From an uncultured Spirochaetaceae bacterium (GTDB lineage Bacteria; Spirochaetota; Spirochaetia; Sphaerochaetales; Sphaerochaetaceae), in assembly GCA_944390015.1 (NCBI GenBank), contig CALXOL010000016.1:1-50400 (forward strand): 50,400 bases of DNA. The letters are read 5' to 3'. Each line of letters starts with the position of its first letter. Within the stretch, counting starts at the first letter, position 1. The position numbers were made by a program, and so were the translations under genes. Shown here piece by piece: positions 1 to 15,523 of this stretch. The notes under the pieces were generated by a model. That model ran no database searches. It saw only the letters and a list, made by a program, of their open reading frames with translations, and had not been told where the DNA came from.

Positions 1-64
1 CGTCTAGTGGTTAGGACAACGGGTTTTCATCCCGTCAACACCAGTTCGATCCTGGTAGGAGATG
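1..64 (+). tRNA. tRNA-Glu (UUC), 5' end cut by window edge
   Basis: The sequence begins at about tRNA position 9 and runs through the D arm (CGTCTAGTGGTTAGGAC), an anticodon stem ACGGG/CCCGT with loop TTTTCAT, and a T arm ACCAG-TTCGATC-CTGGT. The anticodon in the loop is TTC, which reads GAA (Glu). The 3' acceptor strand is AGGAGAT with G as the discriminator base at 64. CCA is not encoded. The first 8 bases lie outside the window. The D-arm sequence and anticodon together make Glu secure. Confidence 0.93.
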
Positions 65-70
65 AATAGA

Positions 71-1660: not shown

Positions 1661-2791
1661 TTAATTCAATGCTATCGTAACCCTGTATTCCGATTGATTA
1701 CTGTTTATAGATAATTCCACTTGATCTGTTTTTCCTTCTGCCATAATCTTTATGTTTTCTGTTGCAACTCCATCTTCTGGTTTATTTATAAAGAAAACAA
1801 CATCTTCTCCAAGGCCTGAGAACATTCCGCTTCTTCTCCCTTCTCCAACTGCTGTTTCAGAATCTGTATACACACTCTTACTCTTAGGTGAAGTAGTTGA
1901 AGGAGTAATATTAGAAAGTGAAGTTAAATCGAGAGATACAGCGACGTTATCTACTCCTTTATTCTCTGTATCTAATACCTGCCCGGAAATACTTATTTTG
2001 AACCAGTTCTTAATAAAGTATAGGGTATCGGTCTGGCTCTGGAATGAACCATCAAAGTTTTCTGACGTCAAGACATAATTTCCTGTGTTATCATCACCCT
2101 TATATGAGAATTGATCCTCACTTACTTTATTGGTATTAACTTCCTTATTCACGCTTTCAAAATTAGACAATGTGACTTCAGGTACGCTCTCGCCTTTATA
2201 ATAGACAACAGTAATTGAATATGTTCCAACAGCGCTGATGTTTCCACTTTTCTTAATACCCCTGTAATCCTCATAGGAATAATGAAAATTTATACCATCT
2301 CTTAGAGTGGATAAATCGGAGGCATCTTTAAAATCGATATTGTATGTATATGTATCTACAATACTTGTAAGCTCCGCAGTTTTAATCTGGCTGGTAGATT
2401 CACTGTAAAGCGTTACTGAGCTGTCACTCTTTGTAAGCCCATAGTCTTCATTATAGAAGAGGAGATAGACATTCGTCTTATCGGCATCCTTTCCATACTC
2501 TGCTGAATTCGTCTTCCAATATACCTTTGGAAATGAATAAGCACCGCTTGCGTTTGTATATGCTATTCCATCTGCGCTAGGAGCTGCGAAGTCAGCATGT
2601 CCCTCTTTATCATAAGAATTATAATCGGTATCCCTGGCTGCCTCATCAAAATAAACGGCAACCATTACATCGTTTATTCCATCGCCCGTCTCAGCATCTA
2701 CCACAGATCCTGTTATTCCGCCATAGTAAACTCCAGAGCATGAAGTCAATAAAATCATTATAAGTAAAATCGGCAGGAATATTTTTCTCAT
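1661..2791 (-). CDS. Lipoprotein with carboxypeptidase-regulatory-like folds
   Basis: This 376-residue secreted lipoprotein has a short basic and hydrophobic signal ending in the lipobox LLTSC, with Cys18 as the lipidated residue. Two segments, near residues 27-100 (starting GSVVDAETGDGINDV) and 268-370 (starting SGQVLDTENKGVDNV), resemble Ig-like carboxypeptidase regulatory-like domains. The middle is rich in Ser, Thr, Tyr and Asp. The gene sits inside the efflux operon: its ATG overlaps the stop codon of the RND gene (ATGA), and the TolC gene follows after 12 bases. It may be an accessory surface or periplasmic part of this pump. I do not recognise a named family for the full length. Confidence 0.7.
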   Translation of the reverse strand: MRKIFLPILLIMILLTSCSGVYYGGITGSVVDAETGDGINDVMVAVYFDEAARDTDYNSYDKEGHADFAAPSADGIAYTNASGAYSFPKVYWKTNSAEYGKDADKTNVYLLFYNEDYGLTKSDSSVTLYSESTSQIKTAELTSIVDTYTYNIDFKDASDLSTLRDGINFHYSYEDYRGIKKSGNISAVGTYSITVVYYKGESVPEVTLSNFESVNKEVNTNKVSEDQFSYKGDDNTGNYVLTSENFDGSFQSQTDTLYFIKNWFKISISGQVLDTENKGVDNVAVSLDLTSLSNITPSTTSPKSKSVYTDSETAVGEGRRSGMFSGLGEDVVFFINKPEDGVATENIKIMAEGKTDQVELSINSNQSEYRVTIALN

Positions 2792-5700
2792 TTTCCCCTC
2801 CTCCTGTTGTATTTTCTGTTCATCCTTCTTCTCTCACTTCTGAAATAGAAGATAGGCATGATAATAAGCGTTATGAACGTGCTAGTCGTAAGACCTCCCA
2901 TGATAACCTGTCCAAGCGGTGCATATACCTCGGCACCTTCTCCCCTTGCGATAGCCATAGGGATTACTCCTAAGATGGTAGTCAAGCTACTCATAAGAAT
3001 AGGACGAAGCCTGCTTGTCGTTCCTTCCTTGATATTCTCCTTAAGCATCTGCATCTCCTCATCATACGGCAGGAGACCGAAGGAACCGTCCACCTCATCA
3101 TATTCTATTCCCCTCTCTCTAAGCTTCTCCGCTCTCCTTTCTTCCTGGAGCTGGTTTATGTAATCAACAAGTATGATACCGTTGTTTACAAGCATACCGA
3201 AGAGTGTGATGACTCCCATGATGGAGACCATGTTCATAGATGAGCCGAAAACAGAGAGGGAAAGAAGCACTCCGATGGCACAGAACGGAATCGTAAGCAT
3301 GATGAGTAGAGGATGCTTGAAACGTTCAAATACCAGAACCATAACCATGTATACGAGGAACAGTCCTATAAGGCCCGCCTGCATCATAGGTACGATTGAA
3401 TCGTTAAGCAGCTCGCCCATTCCTCCCGTCTTCGTAGTAATAGAAGGATCTAGTGGATTCTCAGCTAAATAACTGTTTACTCTCTCAGTAACACCGCTTG
3501 TGGATTCACTTACAAGCTGCGCAGATATCGTCACAGTCCTTGCCCTGTCCGTATGGTTAATCTGGGAAAGCTCATTTTCTATGTCGAAGTCGGCAATGGA
3601 GGCAAACGGGACATCGGCTCCAGATTGACTGATGATGTGAAGATCATTAAGCATATTTCTGCTTATCGGCTCATCTGTAACATCGCTTGTAAGCCTTATG
3701 TCATAGTTCTTACCGGTATTGGCATCCTTATAAAGTCCTATATCCATGCCATTGAACAAGATGGCGGTGGTCATTCCTGCCTCGTAACTTGTAATACCCA
3801 TATTCGACATGTTCTCATAACTGGCATTCAGGATGGCAGTACGGGTATCGTAGTTTGAATTGATTGACGTGCTTAACACCTCTTCATCGGTCTTAAGAAA
3901 CTCCTCTATCCTCTTAGCCTCGGAATACAAGAGCTCGCTGTCATCTCCGACCAATGTAAGTCCGTATCCACCACCTCCTGAAATATAGGCTACGAGGTTG
4001 TCATATCCACCATTCTTAACCTGTACGGTAGCACCTGGCAGGATTGCAGATATCTTGTACTGGAGATCGATTATTATGTCATGGATATCCCTATCTCTTT
4101 CTGCAACAGGAACGAGTACTGCATGTATGCTTCCCTTGTTGGTAGTTGAAGTACTGAAATCCAACATGTCTGAACCCTTTCCAGAGAACATCACATACGT
4201 CTTAAGTTCCGGCACATTGTCAATCATAACCTTCTCGGCTTCCTTCATCGCAGAGGCCGTCTGCTCAAGCGTATATCCGTAAGGGAAAGATATGTTTATA
4301 TAGAAATCACTGTTATCCGTACTCGGGATGAACGCAAAACCAACGAAGAAGAAGAGGTATACGGTCAGAAGAAGGACTGAGAGTACGGCTATGACTACAA
4401 ATCCACTATGCTCCAGACATGAACCAATGAATCTCTTATAGAGCCTCTCTACCGAATGCAGAGCCTTAACGATGAAACTCTCCTTCTCCAGTCTCCTGTT
4501 CTGCTCATCTTTTGGAAGGAACTTCTTCAAAAAATACGGAATGAATATGATGGCGACTATCAGGGATGCTCCAATTGAGATCATGAACGTCATCGAAACC
4601 GGGTAGAGGATCATGCCGACGATTCCAGAGAGCATGGCAAGAGGAATAAAGACGATGACCGTGGTGAGGTTACTTCCTATGACAGACTTATCAACAATGT
4701 CCGTACCATGGAAGATGGACTGGTTGACGGTATATGGGAACGTGCCGTCCTCCCTCCTCTGCTGATAGAACTTATAGATCTGGTCAAGTACTACGATCGA
4801 TGCGTCTACTATGCTTCCCAGCGATACTACGATACCCGATATACTCATCAGGTTCACCGAGATTCCAGCAAGCCTCATTCCAATGAATGTGAAGAAAACC
4901 GAAAGAGGAATAGAGAGTCCGATTACCAGCGTCGCCCTCAGGTCATTGAGGAAAACGAAGATTACGATAACAGCGATCAGTATTCCCATGACACCAGATT
5001 CGATAACGGTTGAAAGGCTTGAAATAATCGTCTGACTGTCATCACTCAATGTATTGAAGCTTACCGCCCCGTTGAATCTCGCCTCTTCAGAAGAGAGTAT
5101 TTTCTTAATTGAGTTTATTATCTGCAGGGTATTCTCCCCTCCTCGCTTTGCAACTTCTACAAGAACGACATCTTCTCCGTAGCTTGTCACGTAATATGGG
5201 CTCTCAGGGTAGCCGAAACTAATGGTGGCAACATCACTGAGCCTGATTACATCCCCGCTCTCAGTAGCGCCAACGGGAAGATTGGAGATATCATTGATGC
5301 TGTCGAAGGAACCGTCATACCTGATCGATATCTCACTGCCCTGGTATTCACCGGTACTAAGTGGGATGGAGAGATTGCTGTATGCAAGTACCTGATAAAC
5401 CTGGAGAACGGAGATCTTTAAAAGGCTCATTCTGTCAAGGTCGAGCTTTATATCCACCTCAGGCTCCGTCGTTCCGCTCACGCTTACCGTAGAAACTCCG
5501 GAAATCCTTGTAATCTGAGGAATGAGTTCATCCTCAACGTATTCTGAGATGTTCGCAATATCCGATCCCGCACTTACCGTGAATGAGAAAATTGGAAGCA
5601 TGGATGCACCTCCAACAATCGCAGTAGGTGTCCCACTGAGACCGGAAGGAAGAGAACTCTCCATCTCCGAAATCCTGTTACGTACCTCAGGAAGCATATC

Positions 5701-6006
5701 ATATGCGTCTATACCGTCCTGGAACGAAAGGATGACGACTCCAACGCTGTTCGAGGCCTGGCTCTCCATGCCGGAAAACCCCTCAAGGGTGACGAAATTA
5801 TCCTCCATGACATCGATTACGGTCTCCTCAATATCCTGGCTGCTCGCACCGGGATAGATTGAGATTACATACACCTGAGGTATGTTGATATCGCTCATGA
5901 ACTCTATGTTCACATCATATATGCTGACGAGGCCGAATACAGCGAGGGCCATCAGAACCATGCCTATTATGACGGGATGTTGAACTGAAAACCTTGATAT
6001 CTTCAT
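2788..6006 (-). CDS. RND efflux transporter, AcrB/HAE1-like
   Basis: This 1072-residue inner-membrane pump is full length for the AcrB family. It has an N-terminal membrane helix (FSVQHPVIIG), two large periplasmic porter regions (about 35-330 and 560-865) and two sets of membrane helices. TM4 reads SIVDASIVVLDQ: Asp401 is kept but the second acidic residue of the AcrB Asp407-Asp408 pair is Ala402. In TM10 the position of AcrB Lys940 is Asn941 (MLVNNGIILVD). The start has GGGGGAG just upstream and lies 1 base after the stop of the adaptor gene. It should export a small molecule or lipid with the TolC-like channel. The substrate is unknown. Confidence 0.92.
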   Translation of the reverse strand: MKISRFSVQHPVIIGMVLMALAVFGLVSIYDVNIEFMSDINIPQVYVISIYPGASSQDIEETVIDVMEDNFVTLEGFSGMESQASNSVGVVILSFQDGIDAYDMLPEVRNRISEMESSLPSGLSGTPTAIVGGASMLPIFSFTVSAGSDIANISEYVEDELIPQITRISGVSTVSVSGTTEPEVDIKLDLDRMSLLKISVLQVYQVLAYSNLSIPLSTGEYQGSEISIRYDGSFDSINDISNLPVGATESGDVIRLSDVATISFGYPESPYYVTSYGEDVVLVEVAKRGGENTLQIINSIKKILSSEEARFNGAVSFNTLSDDSQTIISSLSTVIESGVMGILIAVIVIFVFLNDLRATLVIGLSIPLSVFFTFIGMRLAGISVNLMSISGIVVSLGSIVDASIVVLDQIYKFYQQRREDGTFPYTVNQSIFHGTDIVDKSVIGSNLTTVIVFIPLAMLSGIVGMILYPVSMTFMISIGASLIVAIIFIPYFLKKFLPKDEQNRRLEKESFIVKALHSVERLYKRFIGSCLEHSGFVVIAVLSVLLLTVYLFFFVGFAFIPSTDNSDFYINISFPYGYTLEQTASAMKEAEKVMIDNVPELKTYVMFSGKGSDMLDFSTSTTNKGSIHAVLVPVAERDRDIHDIIIDLQYKISAILPGATVQVKNGGYDNLVAYISGGGGYGLTLVGDDSELLYSEAKRIEEFLKTDEEVLSTSINSNYDTRTAILNASYENMSNMGITSYEAGMTTAILFNGMDIGLYKDANTGKNYDIRLTSDVTDEPISRNMLNDLHIISQSGADVPFASIADFDIENELSQINHTDRARTVTISAQLVSESTSGVTERVNSYLAENPLDPSITTKTGGMGELLNDSIVPMMQAGLIGLFLVYMVMVLVFERFKHPLLIMLTIPFCAIGVLLSLSVFGSSMNMVSIMGVITLFGMLVNNGIILVDYINQLQEERRAEKLRERGIEYDEVDGSFGLLPYDEEMQMLKENIKEGTTSRLRPILMSSLTTILGVIPMAIARGEGAEVYAPLGQVIMGGLTTSTFITLIIMPIFYFRSERRRMNRKYNRRRGK

Positions 6007-6007
6007 C

Positions 6008-7060
6008 TCACTCCCCCAGGATTCTTACGCTCTGTCCATCAAATAGACTGTTCTGCCCCTCTATGACGAAATCATAATCCTCCATTCCATCCGGGCAGAT
6101 TATGAGATCATCATTCTCATATGATGGGTCATACTCCATGTAACATGCTTTTCCATCGCTTATGTAATAAAGAGAGTCATCGAGACGCAGTACGTTCGTA
6201 GGCAACGTATAGACATCTTCAATCTTTTCATATGTTATGGTGACAGAACAGGCAGAGCCGATTGTGAAATCCTCAGGATCATCGAGCTTCAGCTTTAGGT
6301 TGAAACTCCGGCTCAGAGGATCGATCATCGGAGCAACTGAGACAATCGCGGCACTGCTTTCAAGCCCTCTCGTCTCATCATAAACCTTTATCTCAAGAGA
6401 ATCGGCATTCCCTTTTATCGTGTCGTAATAGCGGGATGCAATGCTTAGGTTTATCACAAGGGAATCCATATCCGCCACTATAGCCAGATAATCGGTGTTT
6501 GTTCCAATTGAACCGACGGATCCTTTGCTCATGATCACGGTCCCACTTATCGGAGATTTCACATCGGCATATGAAAGCTGAAGATCTGCAAGGCTCTTCT
6601 GGGCATTTGCGGCATTCCTCTGTGCGACAACAGCCTCATACTCCTGCTGGCTTACGGCATTGCTCTCATACAGCTTCTGCATCCTCTCATAAGCGCTCTC
6701 CAAAGCCGTGGCCTGAGCCTCAGCCTGTAGCGCCTGAAGCCTATATGGCTCACTGTCTATTCTGGCAACGACCTGGTCTTTTTCGACCTCATCCCCTTCC
6801 TTGATTGAATACTCGAGTATCGTCCCACTTACAAAAGGAACGACCGGTACCATCTGATCGGATTCTATGTATCCGAGAAAACTCACACTCTGGCTTATAT
6901 CCCCATGCGAGGCCTTAACGGTTCTTACCGGTGTCAGCGGAGCCTCATAACTCACACTCTCTCTTGATGTGAAATAAAAACGGAGTAACAGGAATGAAGC
7001 TAAAAGCACAATAATCAATATAACAAAGCGAAGTATCGCAGAGCCCAATTTTTTCTTCAT
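6008..7060 (-). CDS. RND periplasmic adaptor (membrane fusion protein)
   Basis: This 350-residue HlyD/AcrA-like adaptor links the RND pump to the outer-membrane channel. It has one N-terminal membrane anchor (about residues 9-28). A lipoyl-like half motif follows (SGTILEYSIKEGDEVEKDQV), then a coiled-coil hairpin (about 105-150, with NAVSQQEYEAVVAQRNAANA), the second lipoyl half (SPISGTVIMSKGSVG), and a beta-barrel plus membrane-proximal region. It is the first gene of the operon, with AAGGTGG about 7 bases before ATG. The leader is long and AT-rich, unlike the leaderless starts common elsewhere in the window. Confidence 0.92.
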   Translation of the reverse strand: MKKKLGSAILRFVILIIVLLASFLLLRFYFTSRESVSYEAPLTPVRTVKASHGDISQSVSFLGYIESDQMVPVVPFVSGTILEYSIKEGDEVEKDQVVARIDSEPYRLQALQAEAQATALESAYERMQKLYESNAVSQQEYEAVVAQRNAANAQKSLADLQLSYADVKSPISGTVIMSKGSVGSIGTNTDYLAIVADMDSLVINLSIASRYYDTIKGNADSLEIKVYDETRGLESSAAIVSVAPMIDPLSRSFNLKLKLDDPEDFTIGSACSVTITYEKIEDVYTLPTNVLRLDDSLYYISDGKACYMEYDPSYENDDLIICPDGMEDYDFVIEGQNSLFDGQSVRILGE

Positions 7061-7316: not shown

Positions 7317-8687
7317 ATGAGTTCAATCGAAGAAGTATATAGAAAACAGAAAGCCTTCTTCTTAAGCGGAAGAAGCAGGGATATAAGTTTTAGGAAAGAG
7401 AATCTGTTAAAATTCAAAGCTGCGATAAATGAGTATGAACCGCGGCTAAAAGAGGCCCTGTACTTGGACTTGGGCAAGAGCTCAACAGAGAGCTATGCAA
7501 CAGAGATCGGCATAGTGCTTTCCGAGCTGGGTCATACTATCAGGCACTTTGAATCATGGGCTAAGAGAAGAAGGGTACGAACCCCTCTGCTTCATTTCCC
7601 ATCAAAGTCCTACATAATCACGGAACCGCTTGGAAATTCTCTTATAATGAGTCCTTGGAACTACCCGGTCCAGCTGACTCTTGTCCCTCTTATCGGAGCG
7701 ATCAGTTCGGGCTGTACGGCGATAGTCAAGCCTTCAAGATACAGTGAGCATACATCCCTTGTTCTTAAGGAGATGATAGAAAACACGTTCGAAGATGAAT
7801 ACATCGCTCTTTTTCTAGGAGGGCGTGATGTCAATACCGAACTGCTCTCATATAAATGGGACTACATATTCTTCACTGGAAGCGTGAACGTCGGAAGGAT
7901 AGTCGCAGAGAAGGCAGGCCGCGACCTGACGAAGGTAACCCTTGAGCTTGGAGGAAAGAGTCCTGTAATAATTGATGAGAGTGCTGATTTGAAAGTAGCT
8001 ACCACCCGTCTTGCATTCGCTAAATTCGTAAACGCCGGACAGACCTGTGTGGCCCCGGATTACGTATTCGTCCATAAGAGCAGGAGCAAGGAGTTCTTAT
8101 CCCTGATGGCGAAAGCCATTGAGCATGACTACGGTGTGGATCAGATAAATAACAGTGAATTCGGGAAAATAATAAACCATCACCATTTTGAACGGATCTC
8201 CTCCTTGATAGACGGATCTCCCGTGTATTACGGAGGAAAGAGGGATGAAGAGAAGAACAAGATTTCCGCAACTATATTATTCCCCGTAAAACCGGATGAG
8301 GCTGTGATGCAGGAGGAGATATTCGGCCCTGTTCTTCCAGTAATGGAATACGAGGATCTTGATCAGGTGATCTCATTCATACAGCAAAGGCCTCACCCTC
8401 TGGCTCTTTATGTGTTCAGCAGTAAGCGAAGCAACATAAGAAAAATACACTCCTCTCTTATTTTCGGCGGGGGATGCGTAAATGATGGTATAATGCATCT
8501 AGTAAGCCACTCCCTCCCCTTCGGAGGTGTCGGGGATTCCGGTCTGGGCTCATACCATGGAAAGAGGACTTTCCTGGATTTTTCCCATGAGAAGGGAATC
8601 CTTGAGCATTCAACCTGGCTTGATATCACACTCCGTGCCGCCCCTTATGGGAAGAAGGAGAAGATAATAAAAACGATGCTTCATTAG
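7317..8687 (+). CDS. NAD(P)-dependent aldehyde dehydrogenase, ALDH3-like
   Basis: This 456-residue enzyme should oxidise aldehydes to acids with NAD(P)+. It has the oxyanion region MSPWNYPVQL, the cofactor loop FFTGSVNVGR, the general-base motif LELGGKSP, and the catalytic cysteine in NAGQTC. Its length of about 450 residues and the C-terminal SLPFGGVGDSGLGSYHGKRT fit the class 3 (YwdH-like, fatty or aromatic aldehyde) group rather than the longer betaine aldehyde group. It is the first of three genes on the plus strand, followed after 13 bases by the TPR-like gene. The substrate is not evident. It may detoxify lipid-derived aldehydes. Confidence 0.92.
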   Translation: MSSIEEVYRKQKAFFLSGRSRDISFRKENLLKFKAAINEYEPRLKEALYLDLGKSSTESYATEIGIVLSELGHTIRHFESWAKRRRVRTPLLHFPSKSYIITEPLGNSLIMSPWNYPVQLTLVPLIGAISSGCTAIVKPSRYSEHTSLVLKEMIENTFEDEYIALFLGGRDVNTELLSYKWDYIFFTGSVNVGRIVAEKAGRDLTKVTLELGGKSPVIIDESADLKVATTRLAFAKFVNAGQTCVAPDYVFVHKSRSKEFLSLMAKAIEHDYGVDQINNSEFGKIINHHHFERISSLIDGSPVYYGGKRDEEKNKISATILFPVKPDEAVMQEEIFGPVLPVMEYEDLDQVISFIQQRPHPLALYVFSSKRSNIRKIHSSLIFGGGCVNDGIMHLVSHSLPFGGVGDSGLGSYHGKRTFLDFSHEKGILEHSTWLDITLRAAPYGKKEKIIKTMLH

Positions 8688-8700
8688 GAGGAAGTCAAGG

Positions 8701-9600
8701 ATGAGAAAACTTTTTGTATTTTTTACCGTTCTTCTGCTCTCGCTATCGCTTTTTGCCGCATTCAACCCGGAGTACAGCGATTATCTTTATTACGCTCTTG
8801 AGGATTATGATGCAGACGAGTCCTATCTGAAGGACGCATTCATAGAAGCGGATAGCGATGAGGAGAAAAGCGAGATACTTTGGAGACAGAGCAGAAACAG
8901 TCTCGGACAGGGAGACAGGCTCAGTGAGGATGACAAGGACGGCAGATTCGCCAGATACGAGGAATCAGAGCAGTATGCAAAGGACTCCATAGCGCTCTGC
9001 CCTAATGCTGACGCATATCACTGGCTTAGTTCCGCCCTAGGTCGCTGGGGACAGACGAAGGGAGTTCTTGAATCCCTTTCCAGAGCGAGGGAGATGGCCG
9101 ATTATGAGCTTAAAGCAATCGATGGTTTCAACTATGACCATACGGATGCATGGTATGTTCTCGGCATACTTTACAACCAGCTTCCAGGATGGCCGATCAG
9201 TTTTGGAAACAAGAACTGGGCAATAAGCTACATGAGAAGGAGCCTGGACACGAAAATCGATGAGAGAGGACTTTTCCTCACCCTGTATCTTGAGCTTGCA
9301 AACCAGCTTTATTCCAGGAACTGGAATGCGAAAAAGAGGACTAGCGAGATAAACAAGATGCAGGATGATTACGATGAGAATACCGTCCTTTCCGAGAAGA
9401 TGAAATACTATGAGGGATCTGAGGGTGCATCTAAAGTCCCGTTCTACTCAACCGTCGCACTATCCGAGATGTCGGACAGGCAGGAGGCCGCGATGCTTTT
9501 GATGTATGCCGATGCGGTTTTCAAAACAAAGGCGAATCCACTGGATTCTGATGTGGAAAGACACGGCGAGATTCTTGAACGTCTTAACGAGATAACTTAA
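8701..9600 (+). CDS. Exported TPR-like protein of unknown function
   Basis: This 299-residue protein has a Sec signal peptide (cleavage near SLSLFAAF, residue 19-20) and a helical-repeat body. The segment at about 100-180 (AYHWLSSALGRWGQTKGVLE, then DAWYVLGILYNQLPGW) resembles the TPR fold of RMD1-like and TRAP-associated proteins, in which helices pack around a periplasmic ligand pocket. I infer that it is a periplasmic scaffold or binding protein. AGGAGG 9 bases before ATG supports the start. It lies between the aldehyde dehydrogenase and CLC genes and is probably cotranscribed with them. The biological role is unknown. Confidence 0.72.
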   Translation: MRKLFVFFTVLLLSLSLFAAFNPEYSDYLYYALEDYDADESYLKDAFIEADSDEEKSEILWRQSRNSLGQGDRLSEDDKDGRFARYEESEQYAKDSIALCPNADAYHWLSSALGRWGQTKGVLESLSRAREMADYELKAIDGFNYDHTDAWYVLGILYNQLPGWPISFGNKNWAISYMRRSLDTKIDERGLFLTLYLELANQLYSRNWNAKKRTSEINKMQDDYDENTVLSEKMKYYEGSEGASKVPFYSTVALSEMSDRQEAAMLLMYADAVFKTKANPLDSDVERHGEILERLNEIT

Positions 9601-9612
9601 TATTTAGGCATA

Positions 9613-10836
9613 ATGGAATCGTATGCTAAAAACGCATTGAGAGGAGTCCTGACCGGGCTTCTCTCTGCACCCTTCATAACTCTTTTTTCAAATCTTGTCA
9701 CATGGGCGAATGAATTCAATTCGGAGCACCGGATATTGATTCTCCTATTGCCCGTGGGTTCTCTTATAATCATATTGACATACCATCTGCTCGGCTATCA
9801 GAGCAAGAAAATCACAAGCATGGCGATTCACCAGATACACTATGCTGAAGATGGCAATACTTCCATGAAGGGAGAAGGAAGAATTACCATCAAGATGGCG
9901 GCAACCAGCTTCTTCAACTCCGTATTATCTCATTTTCTGGGAGCATCCGTTGGAAAAGAAGGCGTTGGAGTTCAGATCGGGTTTTCCGCAGCCTCAATCC
10001 TGGACAGCGCGGAAGAGAGGCTTCTTGGATCCAGCAGAAGGGATTACTACCTCATGTCAGGGGCATCAGCTGCATTCTCCGCCCTATTCGGAGCACCGGT
10101 AGCAGGAACTCTTTTCGGCATTCACATGGCTTCTCCGAGATTATCCAGATTCGATGCTTTGCTTCCTGCCTTATGCGCATCCTTCTCTGCATACTTTTTT
10201 TCCCAGCTCATGGGCATCCACGTATTGAGCGCTCCACCAGTGGTTCCTCTTGAATTAAATCTTACGAATGCGGCAACCGTATTTCTTTTCGCCGTAGTCA
10301 TAGGCATCGTCTGTTCATTGAGCTGTAAAGCCCTGGAGTTCTTCAAAGAACAGCTGAAAGACCTTTATCCGGGCTCCGAGGCTTTCAAGGCAGTAATTCC
10401 GGCAACGCTTTTAACCGTTTTCGCAATCCTCGTTTTCATATTCACCGGTAAGTTCTGGTATAACGGACTATCAACCGATCTCATAAGGCTCTCAATGTTC
10501 CGAGCCGCAGGATTCGATGATTTCATAATAAAGCTTGTAATGGTACTTCTTTCTCTTGCTGCTGGATTCCAGGGCGGTGAGGTAGTCCCCCTACTTGTCC
10601 TTGGTGCGACTTTCACCTCCTCCCTTGCATCACTCTTTAATCTTGATGCCTCTGCATATTCAATCCTAGGAGCAATTGGATTCTTATCCGCAGGAATAAA
10701 ACTCCCGTTCGTAACATTCGCTCTTGGCATGGAGCTTTTCGGCTACTCGGAACCGGCCCTGCTCTTTTTGATGACTTCGATAGCCCTAATCGCATCCGGT
10801 AAGACAGGAATATATTCACACCAGAGAATTTACTAA
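9613..10836 (+). CDS. CLC-family anion transporter, near the CLC-F clade
   Basis: This 407-residue membrane protein has about ten hydrophobic segments. Conserved CLC elements are [14 protein letters not shown], carrying the gating glutamate in GKEG, the helix [17 protein letters not shown], and [12 protein letters not shown], which replaces the usual GxFxP. It lacks the GSGIP chloride motif. Around TSMAIHQIH the sequence best matches the stretch that is GNNLIIDEIH in fluoride-type CLC proteins, but the polar pair there is changed. It probably exchanges an anion (fluoride or chloride) for protons. No fluoride riboswitch is seen upstream. The start is 12 bases after the TPR gene, with a weak TTAGG site. 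Confidence 0.8.
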
Positions 10837-10916: not shown

Positions 10917-12944
10917 ATGGACGAGAGCAGAATCCGCAACATCGGTATTATGGCTCATATCGATGCTGGCAAAACGACTACGACAGAAAGAATTCTTTTT
11001 TATACTGGTGAGAACCATAGGATCGGCGAAGTTGATAACGGAGAGGCGACTATGGACTGGATGCAGCAGGAGCAGGACAGGGGCATAACAATCACAAGCG
11101 CCGCAACCACCTGCTACTGGAAGGACCACCAGATCAATATCATTGACACTCCGGGACATGTTGACTTCACGGCGGAAGTAGAGCGCTCTTTAAGGGTACT
11201 TGATGGAGCGGTCGCCGTATTCTGTGCCGTCGGCGGTGTAGAGCCTCAGAGTGAGACGGTATGGCGACAGGCTGACACCTATTCAGTCCCGCGCATCGCA
11301 TTCATAAACAAGATGGACAGGCTTGGGGCTAATTTCTTCACAGTCCTTGAGGATATGAGGAAAAAACTCGGTGCAAACCCGATTCCTCTTTTCATCCCGG
11401 TTGGAAGTGAGAATACTTTTAATGCGATAATCGACCTTGTTAACATGAAGCTCCTCTCATTCTCAGAAGCGGATCAGGGAACTACCATAATAGAAGGAGA
11501 GATCCCAGATTCCCAGATGGAAATCGCCGAAGAATGGAGAGAAAAACTCATCGACAGCGCAGCATCATTTTCAGATGAGATAACAGAGCTTTATTTCGAT
11601 GGCAAGGAGATACCTGCAGAGCTCATATATTCCACGCTTAGAAAAGCTACTCTTGAGAGGAAGGCAGTTCCTACGTTCGTAGGTTCCTCATTAAAGAACA
11701 TCGGAGTACAGACACTGCTGGATGGAATAATAAACCTGCTTCCCTCCCCTGTCGATGCACCGGAGATTGAGGCACATGATGCTAGAAACGGAAAAAGCGT
11801 CATGATCCATCACAGCACAAGTGGCAACCTGGAGGCTCTTATATTCAAGATCCAGGTGGATCCTCAGGCCGGCCCCATGTGTTTTGTCAGAGTGTATTCG
11901 GGTGTGCTGAAAAAAGGGATCTCAATCTATAATGCCACAAAAGGCAAGAAAGAGAGAGTAAACAGGCTTTTAAGGATGCATGCCGACCGAAGTGAGGATT
12001 TAAGCGAGATAAAGGCTGGGGACATAGGCGTTATAATCGGATTCAAGAATGCACAGACTGGTGATACCCTTGCAGCTGAGTCATCCCCTTACCTACTTGA
12101 GAACATGGTATTCCCGAAACCTGTAATATCTATCGCGATTGAACCGAAGACCACGGATGCACAGGAGAAACTCAGGAAGGCATTAGAGGTCTTTGCGATG
12201 GAAGATCCTACTTTCACTTATAAGGATGACAGCGAGACTGGACAGCTTGTAATCTCAGGAATGGGAGAACTGCATCTTGATGTCCTTGTAACAAGGATTA
12301 CAAAAGAGATGAAGATCGATGCCAGGGTCGGTAATCCACAGGTAAGCTACAGGGAGTCGATAAAGGGAGAGAAGACCGTCACAGAGGAGTTCTCACGCCA
12401 GATTGCAGGAAAGGAGAACTATGCCTCGCTCACAGTCTCTGTCAAGCCGAATGAGAGAGGAAAAGGCAACGAGTACATCGTATCGGCAAAGACGAGGGAC
12501 ATCCCTCAGGAGATACTGGATGCCATCCGAATGGGTATTGAAGGTTCATTCTCCAGCGGTATTAAATTCGGATATGAGACTACGGATGTAATAGCAGATG
12601 TCAAGGACATTAAATATGACGAGCTTACATCCACTCCTTTTGCGTTTACAAGCTGTGCCGTAATGGCCTTCGATAAGGCATGTCAGGAGGCCGGTGCAAT
12701 CTTGATGGAACCTATCATGAAGGTACAGGTCGTCAGTCCGAGTGAGTATATCGGAGATGTAATAAGCTCTCTTACCCAGCGAAACGGTATAGTGGAGAGC
12801 ATGGAGAGCAAAAGCGGAGGAGACATTGTAAGCGCACAGGTGCCGCTTGAGAAGATGTTCGGCTACTCCACTATTTTACGCTCATCGACTCAGGGAAGAG
12901 GCAGTTTCTCGATGGAGTTCAGCCACTACCAAGAAAAATTATGA
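10917..12944 (+). CDS. fusA: Elongation factor G, spirochaete EF-G2-like (spdEFG2 type)
   Basis: This 675-residue translational GTPase has all EF-G parts: P loop AHIDAGKT (13-20), switch [18 protein letters not shown], then domains II to V. The GTPase domain ([40 protein letters not shown]) resembles from memory the second EF-G of Borrelia and mitochondrial EF-G2. Those act with ribosome recycling factor in splitting ribosomes rather than in translocation. That assignment is an inference and needs a tree. If it is right, the main translocase lies elsewhere in the genome. The gene is followed by the XRE regulator after 42 bases, with no terminator between. It appears to start from a leaderless promoter. 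Confidence 0.9.
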
Positions 12945-12986: not shown

Positions 12987-13301
12987 ATGAAAAAAGTTAG
13001 CAACCTACAGCAGATTTTTGCAAACAACGTGAAGGTAAGGCGTAAGAGGAATGGGCTTACGCAGGCCGAGCTTGCAAAAAAAATTGGCGTCTCAACATCT
13101 TTCATAACTGAGATTGAGACGGTGAGAAAGGCTCCATCGTTCTCCACAGTCGAGAAGATTGCAGAGGTTCTTGAAACACCTGCATGGACTCTTTTCAGTG
13201 AATACAGCGAGAAGATCCGTGATGCGCAGGAGGGGGATGAGCTTTTAAAGTTCCTCCTCAAGAACAAGATCAATGATGCTATTGAAGAAGTTCTAAAATA
13301 A
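12987..13301 (+). CDS. XRE-family helix-turn-helix regulator
   Basis: This 104-residue DNA-binding protein carries a Cro/C1-type HTH over about residues 10-68 (VRRKRNGLTQAELAKKIGVS, then FITEIETVRKAPS). A short acidic and helical tail follows, which could mediate dimerisation. An AGGAG site 9 bases before ATG sets the start. It sits between two EF-G genes and is followed at once by a strong terminator, so it probably shares the transcript of the first EF-G. Its target is unknown. Regulation of one or both EF-G genes is possible but not shown by the sequence. Confidence 0.85.
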   Translation: MKKVSNLQQIFANNVKVRRKRNGLTQAELAKKIGVSTSFITEIETVRKAPSFSTVEKIAEVLETPAWTLFSEYSEKIRDAQEGDELLKFLLKNKINDAIEEVLK

Positions 13302-13438: not shown

Positions 13439-15523
13439 ATGAGCGTTGATACCAAAAACATCAGAAATGTGGCACTCATCGGCCATAATGGAACGGGAAA
13501 GACTAACCTCATAGAGCAGATGCTGTTCTACGCAGGCATTCTTTCCCGTGCTGAAACTGTAGAGAGCGGGAAGACCGTAAGCGACTACACAGATGAAGAG
13601 ATTCAGAAGAAGATGTCCATCCATTCTGCTCTTGCCTCCCTTACTTGGGATGGAAAGGTTATAAACGTACTCGACACCCCGGGTACTGGCGACTTCATAG
13701 GAGAGGCTATCTCCGCATTCAGAGCGACGGAAGCCGCACTCATGATGGTGGATGGGCGTGAGGGTGCTCAGATTGAGACGATAAAGCTCTGGAGAAGACT
13801 TGATGAGAGAAATAAGCCTAGGGCCGTCTTCATCAATAAGATGGATAAGGAGAGGGCCAGCTTCAGGCATACAATAGATTCGCTTGTAGAGGAATTCGGC
13901 GCACATTTCGTACCAGTCGTCATCGCACTGGGAGAGGCCGAGGAATTCCACGGGGTAATCAACCTGATTGAGAACCAGGCATACGAGTGCCATGATGGAG
14001 CAAAAGAGACTCCGATTCCAATCCCTGAGAAATATGCAGCCGTCGTGGAGGATTTCAGGAACAGGTTGATTGAGAATGCGGCAGAGGGAACAGATGAGCT
14101 TATAGAGAAGTATTTTGAGCAGGGAACCCTTGAAGCGGATGACATCAGGCACGGTCTTGCTGTCGGAATGAGGGAAAACAGGGTTGTTCCTGTGTTCTGC
14201 GGAGCTACGGACAAGGGAGCTGGTATCACATCACTGCTTAACTTCATAAAGAACAACTTCCCATGGCCACTTGGAATCGAGGAATACATCATCGGACATG
14301 ACGGAGAAGAGACTACTCTTGAGATCGACCCGGATAAGCCTTTCTCCGCATACTGCTTTAAGACGACAATCGACCAGTTCTCTGGAAAGATGAGCTTTAT
14401 AAAGGTTGTCACAGGAACCCTTACTCCTGAGACCGACATATACAACAACGAGCTTGGTAAGAAAGCAAAGGCAGGTAAGCTATATAGGGCAATCGGAAAG
14501 AAGCTTATCGAGACCGACAGCCTCGTTGCTGGAGATATCGGAATCATTACGAAGTGCGACATAATCAGCACCAACTCCACTCTAGTCGCTGGACCGGAAT
14601 ACAAGAGAAGATTCCGCCCTCTTCGCCTTCCTCAGCCTATCTATCAGCTTGCAATCAGTGCTGATGACAAAAAGAGCGAAGATAAGATGAATGATGCTCT
14701 TCACAGGGTACAGGAAGAGGATCTCACATTCCAGATGACATATAATGAGGAGACGAGGGAATCCATCATCGGAGGCATGGGTGAGCTGCACATCAACATG
14801 ATTCTGGACAAGATCAGGGAAAAACAGAAGATTCAGATCCATACCAGAACACCTAGGATCGCCTACCGCGAGACGATTACCAAGAAAAGCGGACTCGCAG
14901 AATACTCTCACAAGAAGCAGAGCGGTGGACATGGACAGTTCGGACGTGTCGTACTCGAGATTGAACCTCTTGAGAGGGGGCAGTACTATGAATTTGAGAA
15001 CGTCATCAAGGGAGGTGCCATCTCCAAGGGATATGTTCCGGGAATTGAGAAGGGCCTACATGAGAAGATGGAGGAAGGATTCCTTGCAGGTTATCCTCTG
15101 GTAGACATCAAGATAACGCTTGTTGATGGAAAAGAGCATCCTGTAGACTCTTCAGAAATGGCGTTCAAACTCGCTGCGAAAGGTGCTATGGAAATCGCCC
15201 TTTCCAAAGCTGGATGCGTTCTGCTTGAGCCTTTCATGCGTCTTGAAGTATTCGTCGATGATGAATATCTTGGAGCAATTCTATCCGATCTTTCAGGAAA
15301 GAGAGGTCGTGTGCTCGGGCAGGAGGAAAAAGGTCATGTAGTAGCCGTAAAGGCTGAAGTACCGATGGCGGAGCTCAGAAACTATGCCATCGAGCTCAAG
15401 AGCATGACAAGCGGCACAGGTTCTTTTGAACTCGAATTCGACCATTATGAGATTCTTCAGGGCAAGCTTGCAGAGGATGTCATAGCAGAGGCGAAGAGAG
15501 CTAAAGAAGAAGCCAATGGCTGA
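13439..15523 (+). CDS. EF-G-like translational GTPase, EF-G II class
   Basis: This 694-residue protein has EF-G domain order but a distinct GTPase domain. The P loop is GHNGTGKT (15-22), and switch I has KKMSIHSALA in place of RGITI. DTPGTGDF replaces DTPGH, which removes the usual histidine next to the G3 motif, and NKMD is kept. These are marks of the EF-G II class, such as Mycobacterium FusA2 and Thermus EF-G-2. Domains IV and V are complete (HGQFGRVVLEIEPL, GTGSFELEFDHYE). AGGAGG lies 7 bases before ATG. Reported members bind GTP and act on ribosomes, but their physiological role is poorly known. Confidence 0.9.
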   Translation: MSVDTKNIRNVALIGHNGTGKTNLIEQMLFYAGILSRAETVESGKTVSDYTDEEIQKKMSIHSALASLTWDGKVINVLDTPGTGDFIGEAISAFRATEAALMMVDGREGAQIETIKLWRRLDERNKPRAVFINKMDKERASFRHTIDSLVEEFGAHFVPVVIALGEAEEFHGVINLIENQAYECHDGAKETPIPIPEKYAAVVEDFRNRLIENAAEGTDELIEKYFEQGTLEADDIRHGLAVGMRENRVVPVFCGATDKGAGITSLLNFIKNNFPWPLGIEEYIIGHDGEETTLEIDPDKPFSAYCFKTTIDQFSGKMSFIKVVTGTLTPETDIYNNELGKKAKAGKLYRAIGKKLIETDSLVAGDIGIITKCDIISTNSTLVAGPEYKRRFRPLRLPQPIYQLAISADDKKSEDKMNDALHRVQEEDLTFQMTYNEETRESIIGGMGELHINMILDKIREKQKIQIHTRTPRIAYRETITKKSGLAEYSHKKQSGGHGQFGRVVLEIEPLERGQYYEFENVIKGGAISKGYVPGIEKGLHEKMEEGFLAGYPLVDIKITLVDGKEHPVDSSEMAFKLAAKGAMEIALSKAGCVLLEPFMRLEVFVDDEYLGAILSDLSGKRGRVLGQEEKGHVVAVKAEVPMAELRNYAIELKSMTSGTGSFELEFDHYEILQGKLAEDVIAEAKRAKEEANG

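Follow-up and report, generated by a model that had tools for sequence, protein, structure and literature searches.

The CLC-family gene at positions 9613 to 10836 of the window (the whole stretch of 50,400 nucleotides analyzed here) is best read as belonging to a third, Thr/Ser subclass of the CLC-F superclade, besides the Asn and Met types. We found no description of a Thr-type subclade in the literature searched, most subscription journals lying outside that search. The features on which the argument is built are given below, with residues of the Enterococcus casseliflavus fluoride/proton antiporter CLC-Eca (PDB 6d0j) for comparison:

7317..8687, plus strand: class-3-like aldehyde dehydrogenase (ALDH), first gene of the putative operon (Pfam Aldedh, 270.5 bits; PDB 6k0z, 465 bits; synteny)
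8701..9600, plus strand: all-helical TPR-like protein of 299 aa, probably exported (signal-peptide-like N-terminus by eye), between ALDH and CLC
9613..10836, plus strand: CLC-family anion transporter gene of the Thr/Ser-type clade of the CLC-F superclade, 407 aa (ATG start, single ORF)
9811..9840, plus strand: [10 protein letters not shown], residues 67-76, which line up with GNNLIIDEIH in the Asn-type CLC-Fs
9814-9816, plus strand: T68, at the alignment position of M79 in Eca and of the leading Asn in GNNL
9952..9966, plus strand: GKEGV, residues 114-118, in which E116 is the external gating glutamate (Eca E118)
10573..10590, plus strand: GGEVVP, residues 321-326, in which E323 is the internal glutamate (Eca E318) and V325 stands in place of Eca T320
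10813..10815, plus strand: Y401, the conserved CLC tyrosine

The protein scored 144.4 bits against the Pfam profile Voltage_CLC (cut-off 24.8), which places it in the CLC superfamily, and it is the sole CLC found at E <= 0.001 in the assembly (2.19 Mb, 95% complete). Its best PDB match was 6d0j (105 bits, versus 32 bits for ClcA). An AlphaFold2 model (pLDDT 89.1) matched 6d0j with a VIA Z of 53.0 over 389 residues (rmsd 1.9) and ClcA-type structures with a Z of about 39, the superposition being given as residue ranges. Residues 62-79 form a helix in the model, which at first sight is odd for the C-D loop; this objection was dropped, as Eca residues 74-87 are handled as a helix in the available text of PMC12035849. 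Of the 36 genomes in the genus, its own counted, 32 had a homologue of the window CLC, and weak homologues (27-28% identity) were present in 2 of 24 genomes from other families of the class. The homologue set consists of the best 80 of the 180 relatives found; the names of close relatives include Candidatus Ornithospirochaeta and uncultured Spirochaetales, and one member of the family comes from a named strain, Bullifex porci (L072).

For the ion site, hhalign gave an ungapped register with GNNLIIDEIH, and MAFFT agreed for the GNN columns. Counting along the Eca chain differs from the published numbers by a constant offset of 3, and M79, E118 and E318 correspond to T68, E116 and E323 of the window protein. 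The segment GIY401SHQR aligns with SIYPLQ of Eca and with GIY of the riboswitch-linked CLC-Fs; the Eca tyrosine is Y396, which has an equivalent in ClcA. With phmmer, Met70 of the window protein had been paired with Met79 of Eca; we rejected this, because position 70 varies freely (14 different residues among the 66 spirochaete homologues), whereas position 68 is conserved and falls in the GNN column with both MAFFT and hhalign. Residues were counted over 66 spirochaete sequences, the window included and the fragments L087, L096 and L099 left out. Position 68 is T in 56 of these, S in 6, I in 2 and G in 2 (T or S in 62/66), with N or M in none, and K115, E116, E323, P326 and Y401 are invariant (66/66). 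Similarly, E116, E323 and Y401 are found in all 11 clostridial homologues. Position 325 is V in 60 of the spirochaete sequences, I in 4 and L in 2, with Thr in 0/66. The riboswitch-linked CLC-Fs have N, R, E, T and Y at columns 68, 115, 323, 325 and 401, respectively, each in 9/9. We rejected the idea that T68 is a lone mutation, since it is a feature of the whole clade; the variant motifs are fixed clade features, beyond chance, and not an isolated change.

Table 1 of PMC5100911 lists GSGIP, G[RK]EGP, GIFAP or GGFMP and a Y for chloride CLCs, and GNNL[IL] or GM(x)L[IVL], GREG[TV], GEVTP and a Y for fluoride CLCs, the conserved Y being given for both alike; the three CLC-F signatures are also named in the available text of PMC11139923. 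The window protein has ITSMA in place of GNNLI or GM(x)L[IVL] in its N-terminal half, GKEGV in place of GREGT or GREGV, and GEVVP in place of GEVTP. It does carry the internal glutamate of the CLC-Fs, E323; the Eca equivalent, E318, is described in the available text of PMC12035849 as an extra glutamate near the central site that other CLCs lack, and M79 of Eca as occupying the place of ClcA S107. From the chloride set it has the gating Glu (GKEG) and the Tyr, and lacks GSGIP, the P of EGP and GxFxP, so that neither motif set is complete. The initial annotation had read the strings [10 protein letters not shown], GKEGV and GGEVVP correctly, in the register with GNNLIIDEIH that hhalign confirmed, and was right that the fluoride Asn signature is missing, T68 standing in place of Asn/Met. 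It was mistaken in holding that the chloride Ser/Tyr signature is missing too, for Y401 is present (66/66) and the key column holds a hydroxyl residue, T68. A corrected alignment that restores the motif, which it had named as counter-evidence, is borne out in part: this tyrosine and hydroxyl come back, and the fluoride Asn/Met stays absent. Its further proposal, that the selectivity of this CLC may be new, does not follow from these residues: a hydroxyl together with the tyrosine resembles the chloride CLCs, and selectivity is not set by side chains alone. In the available text of PMC9726985, for example, a proline at Ser-cen changes CLC-0 strongly and CLC-1 and CLC-K little.

In a maximum-likelihood tree of 76 rows, for which 39 of the 79 homologous loci and the window were used, the Cl-type outgroup stood apart from the other 68 rows at 100/100, which puts the window protein inside the CLC-F superclade. 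Within the 68 rows, a 'deep' group of six Spirochaetota CLCs branches first. The remaining 62 rows are joined at a node with support 100/99 and comprise the Asn type (15 rows, 86/86), the Met type (5 rows, 100/100), the clostridial Thr type (9 rows, 100/99), the window clade (32 rows, 100/100) and a Pseudalkalibacillus row. The Met type groups with the clostridial Thr type as its sister (95/88). The position of the window clade, and with it the branch order, is weakly supported (76/21). An AU test did not reject a single clade of the window clade and the clostridial Thr type (p 0.101). The claim that the protein lies near the fluoride clade without its selectivity motif is upheld by the 105 versus 32 bits for 6d0j and ClcA, by the Z of 53.0 versus 39 and by its own clade inside the superclade. 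Nesting in the main CLC-F clade, which the initial annotation had named as counter-evidence, is not seen in the best tree, in which its clade is separate, although the AU test does not reject a single clade with the Asn type (p 0.364).

With clades coded by their usual residue, at least 3 changes at the key site are needed on this tree; whole clades were coded T/S for this count, though 4 of 66 rows differ. The deep group likewise has Thr at the key site, together with GKEGP, GKEAP or GREAP, and no glutamate in its GG[IV]xTP-like segment. Its members are L180, L181, L183, L189, L191, L192 and L199, the last placed by motif only; the internal glutamate is absent wherever the segment is covered, and CrcB is present in 4/7 of the genomes, which is not significant. 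Thr is thus shared by the deep group and two crown clades, which makes it plausible as the older state. We therefore raise, as a tentative scenario and a rather doubtful one, that the internal glutamate and CLC-F-style proton coupling might have arisen first in an ancestor that carried chloride or halides and had a central hydroxyl, that fluoride selectivity (Asn or Met plus Thr320) came later and twice, and that living Thr-type proteins would be pre-fluoride intermediates.

Compared with known CLCs, the window protein resembles CLC-Eca, of the Met type, in fold, in similar length and in having equivalents of E118, E318, V319 and the tyrosine; it differs in M79 to T68, GREGV to GKEGV and T320 to V325, at 26% identity. 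With the riboswitch-controlled Asn-type CLC-Fs (Pseudomonas syringae, Citrobacter and others) it shares the superclade, the internal glutamate, the tyrosine and, in most, an I-[DE]-x-I-H-like tail after the site, but not GNN, GREGT, GEVTP or the riboswitch. The clostridial Thr-type CLCs, named 'chloride channel protein' (L100-L110, L209-L238 and Monoglobus L135), resemble it in their key-site Thr, in Val/Ile at the place of Eca T320 and in the internal glutamate; in contrast to the window protein, they have GRE rather than GKE and form a separate clade (100/99). E. coli ClcA (CLC-ec1) shares the CLC fold, the external glutamate, the tyrosine and a central-site hydroxyl residue, whereas its GSGIP and GIFAP are both absent from the window protein, and in ClcA an Ile takes the place of the internal glutamate of CLC-F.

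The CLC gene lies with genes for an ALDH and a probably exported TPR-like protein, the latter annotated at the outset as periplasmic: the three genes lie on the same strand with gaps of 13 bases (ALDH-TPR) and 12 bases (TPR-CLC), export of the TPR-like protein being judged from its signal-peptide-like start by eye. Further PDB matches of the ALDH were 'dimeric NADP-preferring', class 3 and fatty aldehyde dehydrogenases (360-373 bits). The TPR-like protein is modeled as helices only (AlphaFold2 pLDDT 92), and a few of its homologues match TPR models of Pfam weakly; its best Foldseek matches (7t1s, E 7e-5, TM 0.48; 8g52, E 7e-3) were weak, with rmsd >9 Å, and were not used. The order was ALDH-CLC in 24, ALDH-TPR-CLC in 23, TPR-CLC in 1 and another in 7 of the 55 loci with at least 1.5 kb upstream. 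Furthermore, the end of the ALDH gene and the start of the CLC gene share 4 bases in 20/68 loci, taking the first ATG of the ORF as start, and an EF-G-like gene comes next after the CLC on the same strand in 61/68. We regard ALDH-(TPR)-CLC as a conserved and probably co-translated unit. No ALDH was found upstream of the CLC in L064, L086, L089 and L094, and in G073 (L241, 8575-10826) the operon is broken by two opposite-strand genes between TPR and CLC, by eye sugar isomerase-like and class II aldolase-like. Around the unit, the window has two EF-G-like paralogues (by eye; 10917-12944 and 13439-15523) with a small Cro/C1-type HTH gene between them (12987-13301, by Pfam), an order kept in several relatives, and an RND efflux pump with a membrane-fusion protein (2788-7060), divergent from the ALDH-CLC operon and kept in position in G003 and G034.

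The fluoride riboswitch (RF01734) was not found at its gathering score at any of the 79 homologous loci (17 + 16 + 18 + 17 + 11), at least 1.5 kb of upstream sequence being at hand for 55 of the 68 spirochaete loci. Nor was it found in the window genome, or beside the CLC in 48 whole genomes scanned with stricter filters. The reference set, chosen independently of annotation, was made up of plasmid CLCs retrieved with the Eca sequence. Of 13 whose surrounding DNA was scanned, 9 had the riboswitch above the gathering score, and the four without it were a clostridial Thr-type locus (Monoglobus), the Pseudalkalibacillus LNNL variant and two Cl-type loci. Two Spirochaetota CLCs (L178 and L182) also adjoin a fluoride riboswitch. 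Its absence is weak evidence in any single case, because only about 30% of CLC-Fs are under riboswitch control by the figure given in PMC11139923. Among the 48 genomes, riboswitch matches exceeded the cut-off in G003, G034 and G073; matches of 23 to 26 bits, under the gathering score, were seen in G062 and G065. The riboswitch precedes a Na_H_Exchanger gene in G003, G034, G073, G294 and G074 (33.8 versus a cut-off of 34 in the last), the gene being identified by Pfam in four of these five genomes and by tblastn in the fifth. The available text of PMC11139923 names Na+/H+ antiporter genes as a second established class under the fluoride riboswitch. The loci that join the riboswitch and the Na+/H+ exchanger are:

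L202, 4416-5700
L203, 3653-4939
L204, 2129-3525
L205, 1687-3110, just under the cut-off
L206, 2474-3858

The riboswitch-linked exchanger and the CLC are 6 to 13 kb apart in G073, G003 and G034. In four of the five genomes, a tRNA-Lys(ttt)/tRNA-Glu(ttc) pair was observed within about 2.1 kb of the riboswitch-exchanger locus, and the same pair occurs upstream of ALDH-CLC in L055, L068, L078, L079 and L083. The window contig itself starts inside a tRNA (window 1-65; Rfam match 2-56, none with ARAGORN), 61/65 positions being those of the L203 tRNA-Glu, and the neighboring gene on that side is therefore off the contig.

CrcB was not found in the window genome, and 47 of the 48 genomes with a Thr/Ser-type CLC were without it (present in 0/37 spirochaete and 1/11 clostridial genomes); Spirochaetota as a whole had it in 89/247. 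Spirochaetes are named in the available text of PMC11139923 among the groups that tend to lack fluoride exporters. We rejected CrcB absence as proof of a fluoride role, CrcB being rare in the clostridial order, and see in it no evidence of replacement, because three same-family members outside the genus that have no such CLC (G294, G296 and G308) are without CrcB too. In the clostridial order of G062, CrcB was present in 27/295 genomes and the Thr-type family (E <= 1e-25) in 86/295, the best-scoring 30 of these 86 members all having Thr at the key site. Both occurred together in 11 genomes (expected, 7.9), which indicates no exclusion: the family was found in 11/27 CrcB genomes versus 75/268 others (one-sided 'fewer' P 0.94). 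In the control, CrcB was present in 1/12 Spirochaetota genomes with an Asn/Met-type CLC versus 88/235 others (one-sided P 0.033, two-sided 0.061, relatedness uncorrected), and with the Asn type alone in 1/6 (P 0.30). The Asn/Met types and CrcB thus show a weak tendency not to co-occur.

From the predicted fold, site residues, clade and gene order we infer the coupling, the ion and the physiological role. To the reading that we prefer we give slightly less than an even chance: the window CLC would be a proton-coupled antiporter of the Thr/Ser subclass that carries chloride, or halides with little discrimination, rather than exporting fluoride. Chloride or unselective halide transport is the most likely because a hydroxyl replaces Asn/Met and Val replaces Thr in the GEVTP segment, which is said to contribute fluoride-binding residues. 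The protein would very probably exchange anions for protons by the CLC-F 'windmill' route, in which E116 would be the external glutamate that moves and E323 the internal glutamate for protons, with a central anion site made up of Y401, T68 and backbone amides; its role may be in pH or ion homeostasis alongside the ALDH of the same tightly packed operon. Also in favor are the fold, the conservation of E116, E323 and Y401, the alteration of all three CLC-F signatures, the absence of the riboswitch at the CLC loci, its place before a Na_H_Exchanger gene instead in five relatives, and the lack of exclusion between the clostridial Thr type and CrcB as against the Asn/Met control. Any such ranking of substrates is soft, since side chains alone do not decide selectivity.

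What argues against chloride or halide transport argues for a fluoride/proton antiporter with its selectivity built differently, around Thr at the central site: the position in the CLC-F superclade, the internal glutamate, which is absent from the Cl- CLCs compared, the missing CrcB in 47/48 Thr/Ser-type genomes, a gap that a fluoride role would fill, and the riboswitch-linked exchanger within 6 to 13 kb in three genomes. The weakness of the CrcB control counts against the chloride or halide reading as well. Such a protein, the only CLC found in a genome where no CrcB was found, would be the organisms' only fluoride exporter, expressed without a riboswitch, and PMC11139923 gives a fluoride exporter for >85% of the bacteria it surveyed. 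The CLC-Fs are marked by >80-fold F-/Cl- selectivity (PMC11139923) and 1:1 proton coupling (PMC12035849), as stated in the available text of these sources. We consider a fluoride role a serious rival but the less likely of the two, given the altered signatures, the riboswitch count of 0/79, the lack of CrcB exclusion in the clostridial order and the CLC-less family members that are also without CrcB. Less likely again, and improbable in our view, is the export of a different small anion (nitrate, bicarbonate or a carboxylate that the neighboring ALDH produces) in exchange for protons. The very tight coupling to the class-3-like ALDH (47/55 loci, with the 4-base ORF overlap in 20/68) would suit it, as would the unusually variable residue two after T68, which is Glu in 8/66; but a substrate cannot be read from gene order by itself, four loci have no ALDH found upstream, and we know of no CLC with physiological carboxylate transport. 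A passive chloride channel or leak seems very unlikely: the human ClC-1 channel, too, has the Lys form GKEG (PMC5100911, Table 1), but both CLC-F proton-coupling glutamates are invariant (66/66).

The window gene is ordinary as a conserved member of a known superfamily and unusual in belonging to a Thr/Ser subclass of the CLC-F superclade. For annotation, 'CLC-F-like by BLAST' is insufficient to assign fluoride resistance, and proteins of this kind may be given a wrong name in either direction, chloride channel or fluoride exporter. The available text of PMC12035849 treats as open how CLC-Fs select fluoride when chloride is far commoner. Two clades have retained the internal glutamate of CLC-F (with the predicted CLC-F fold as well in the window protein) while lacking both of the fluoride-associated side chains, and they form a natural comparison set.
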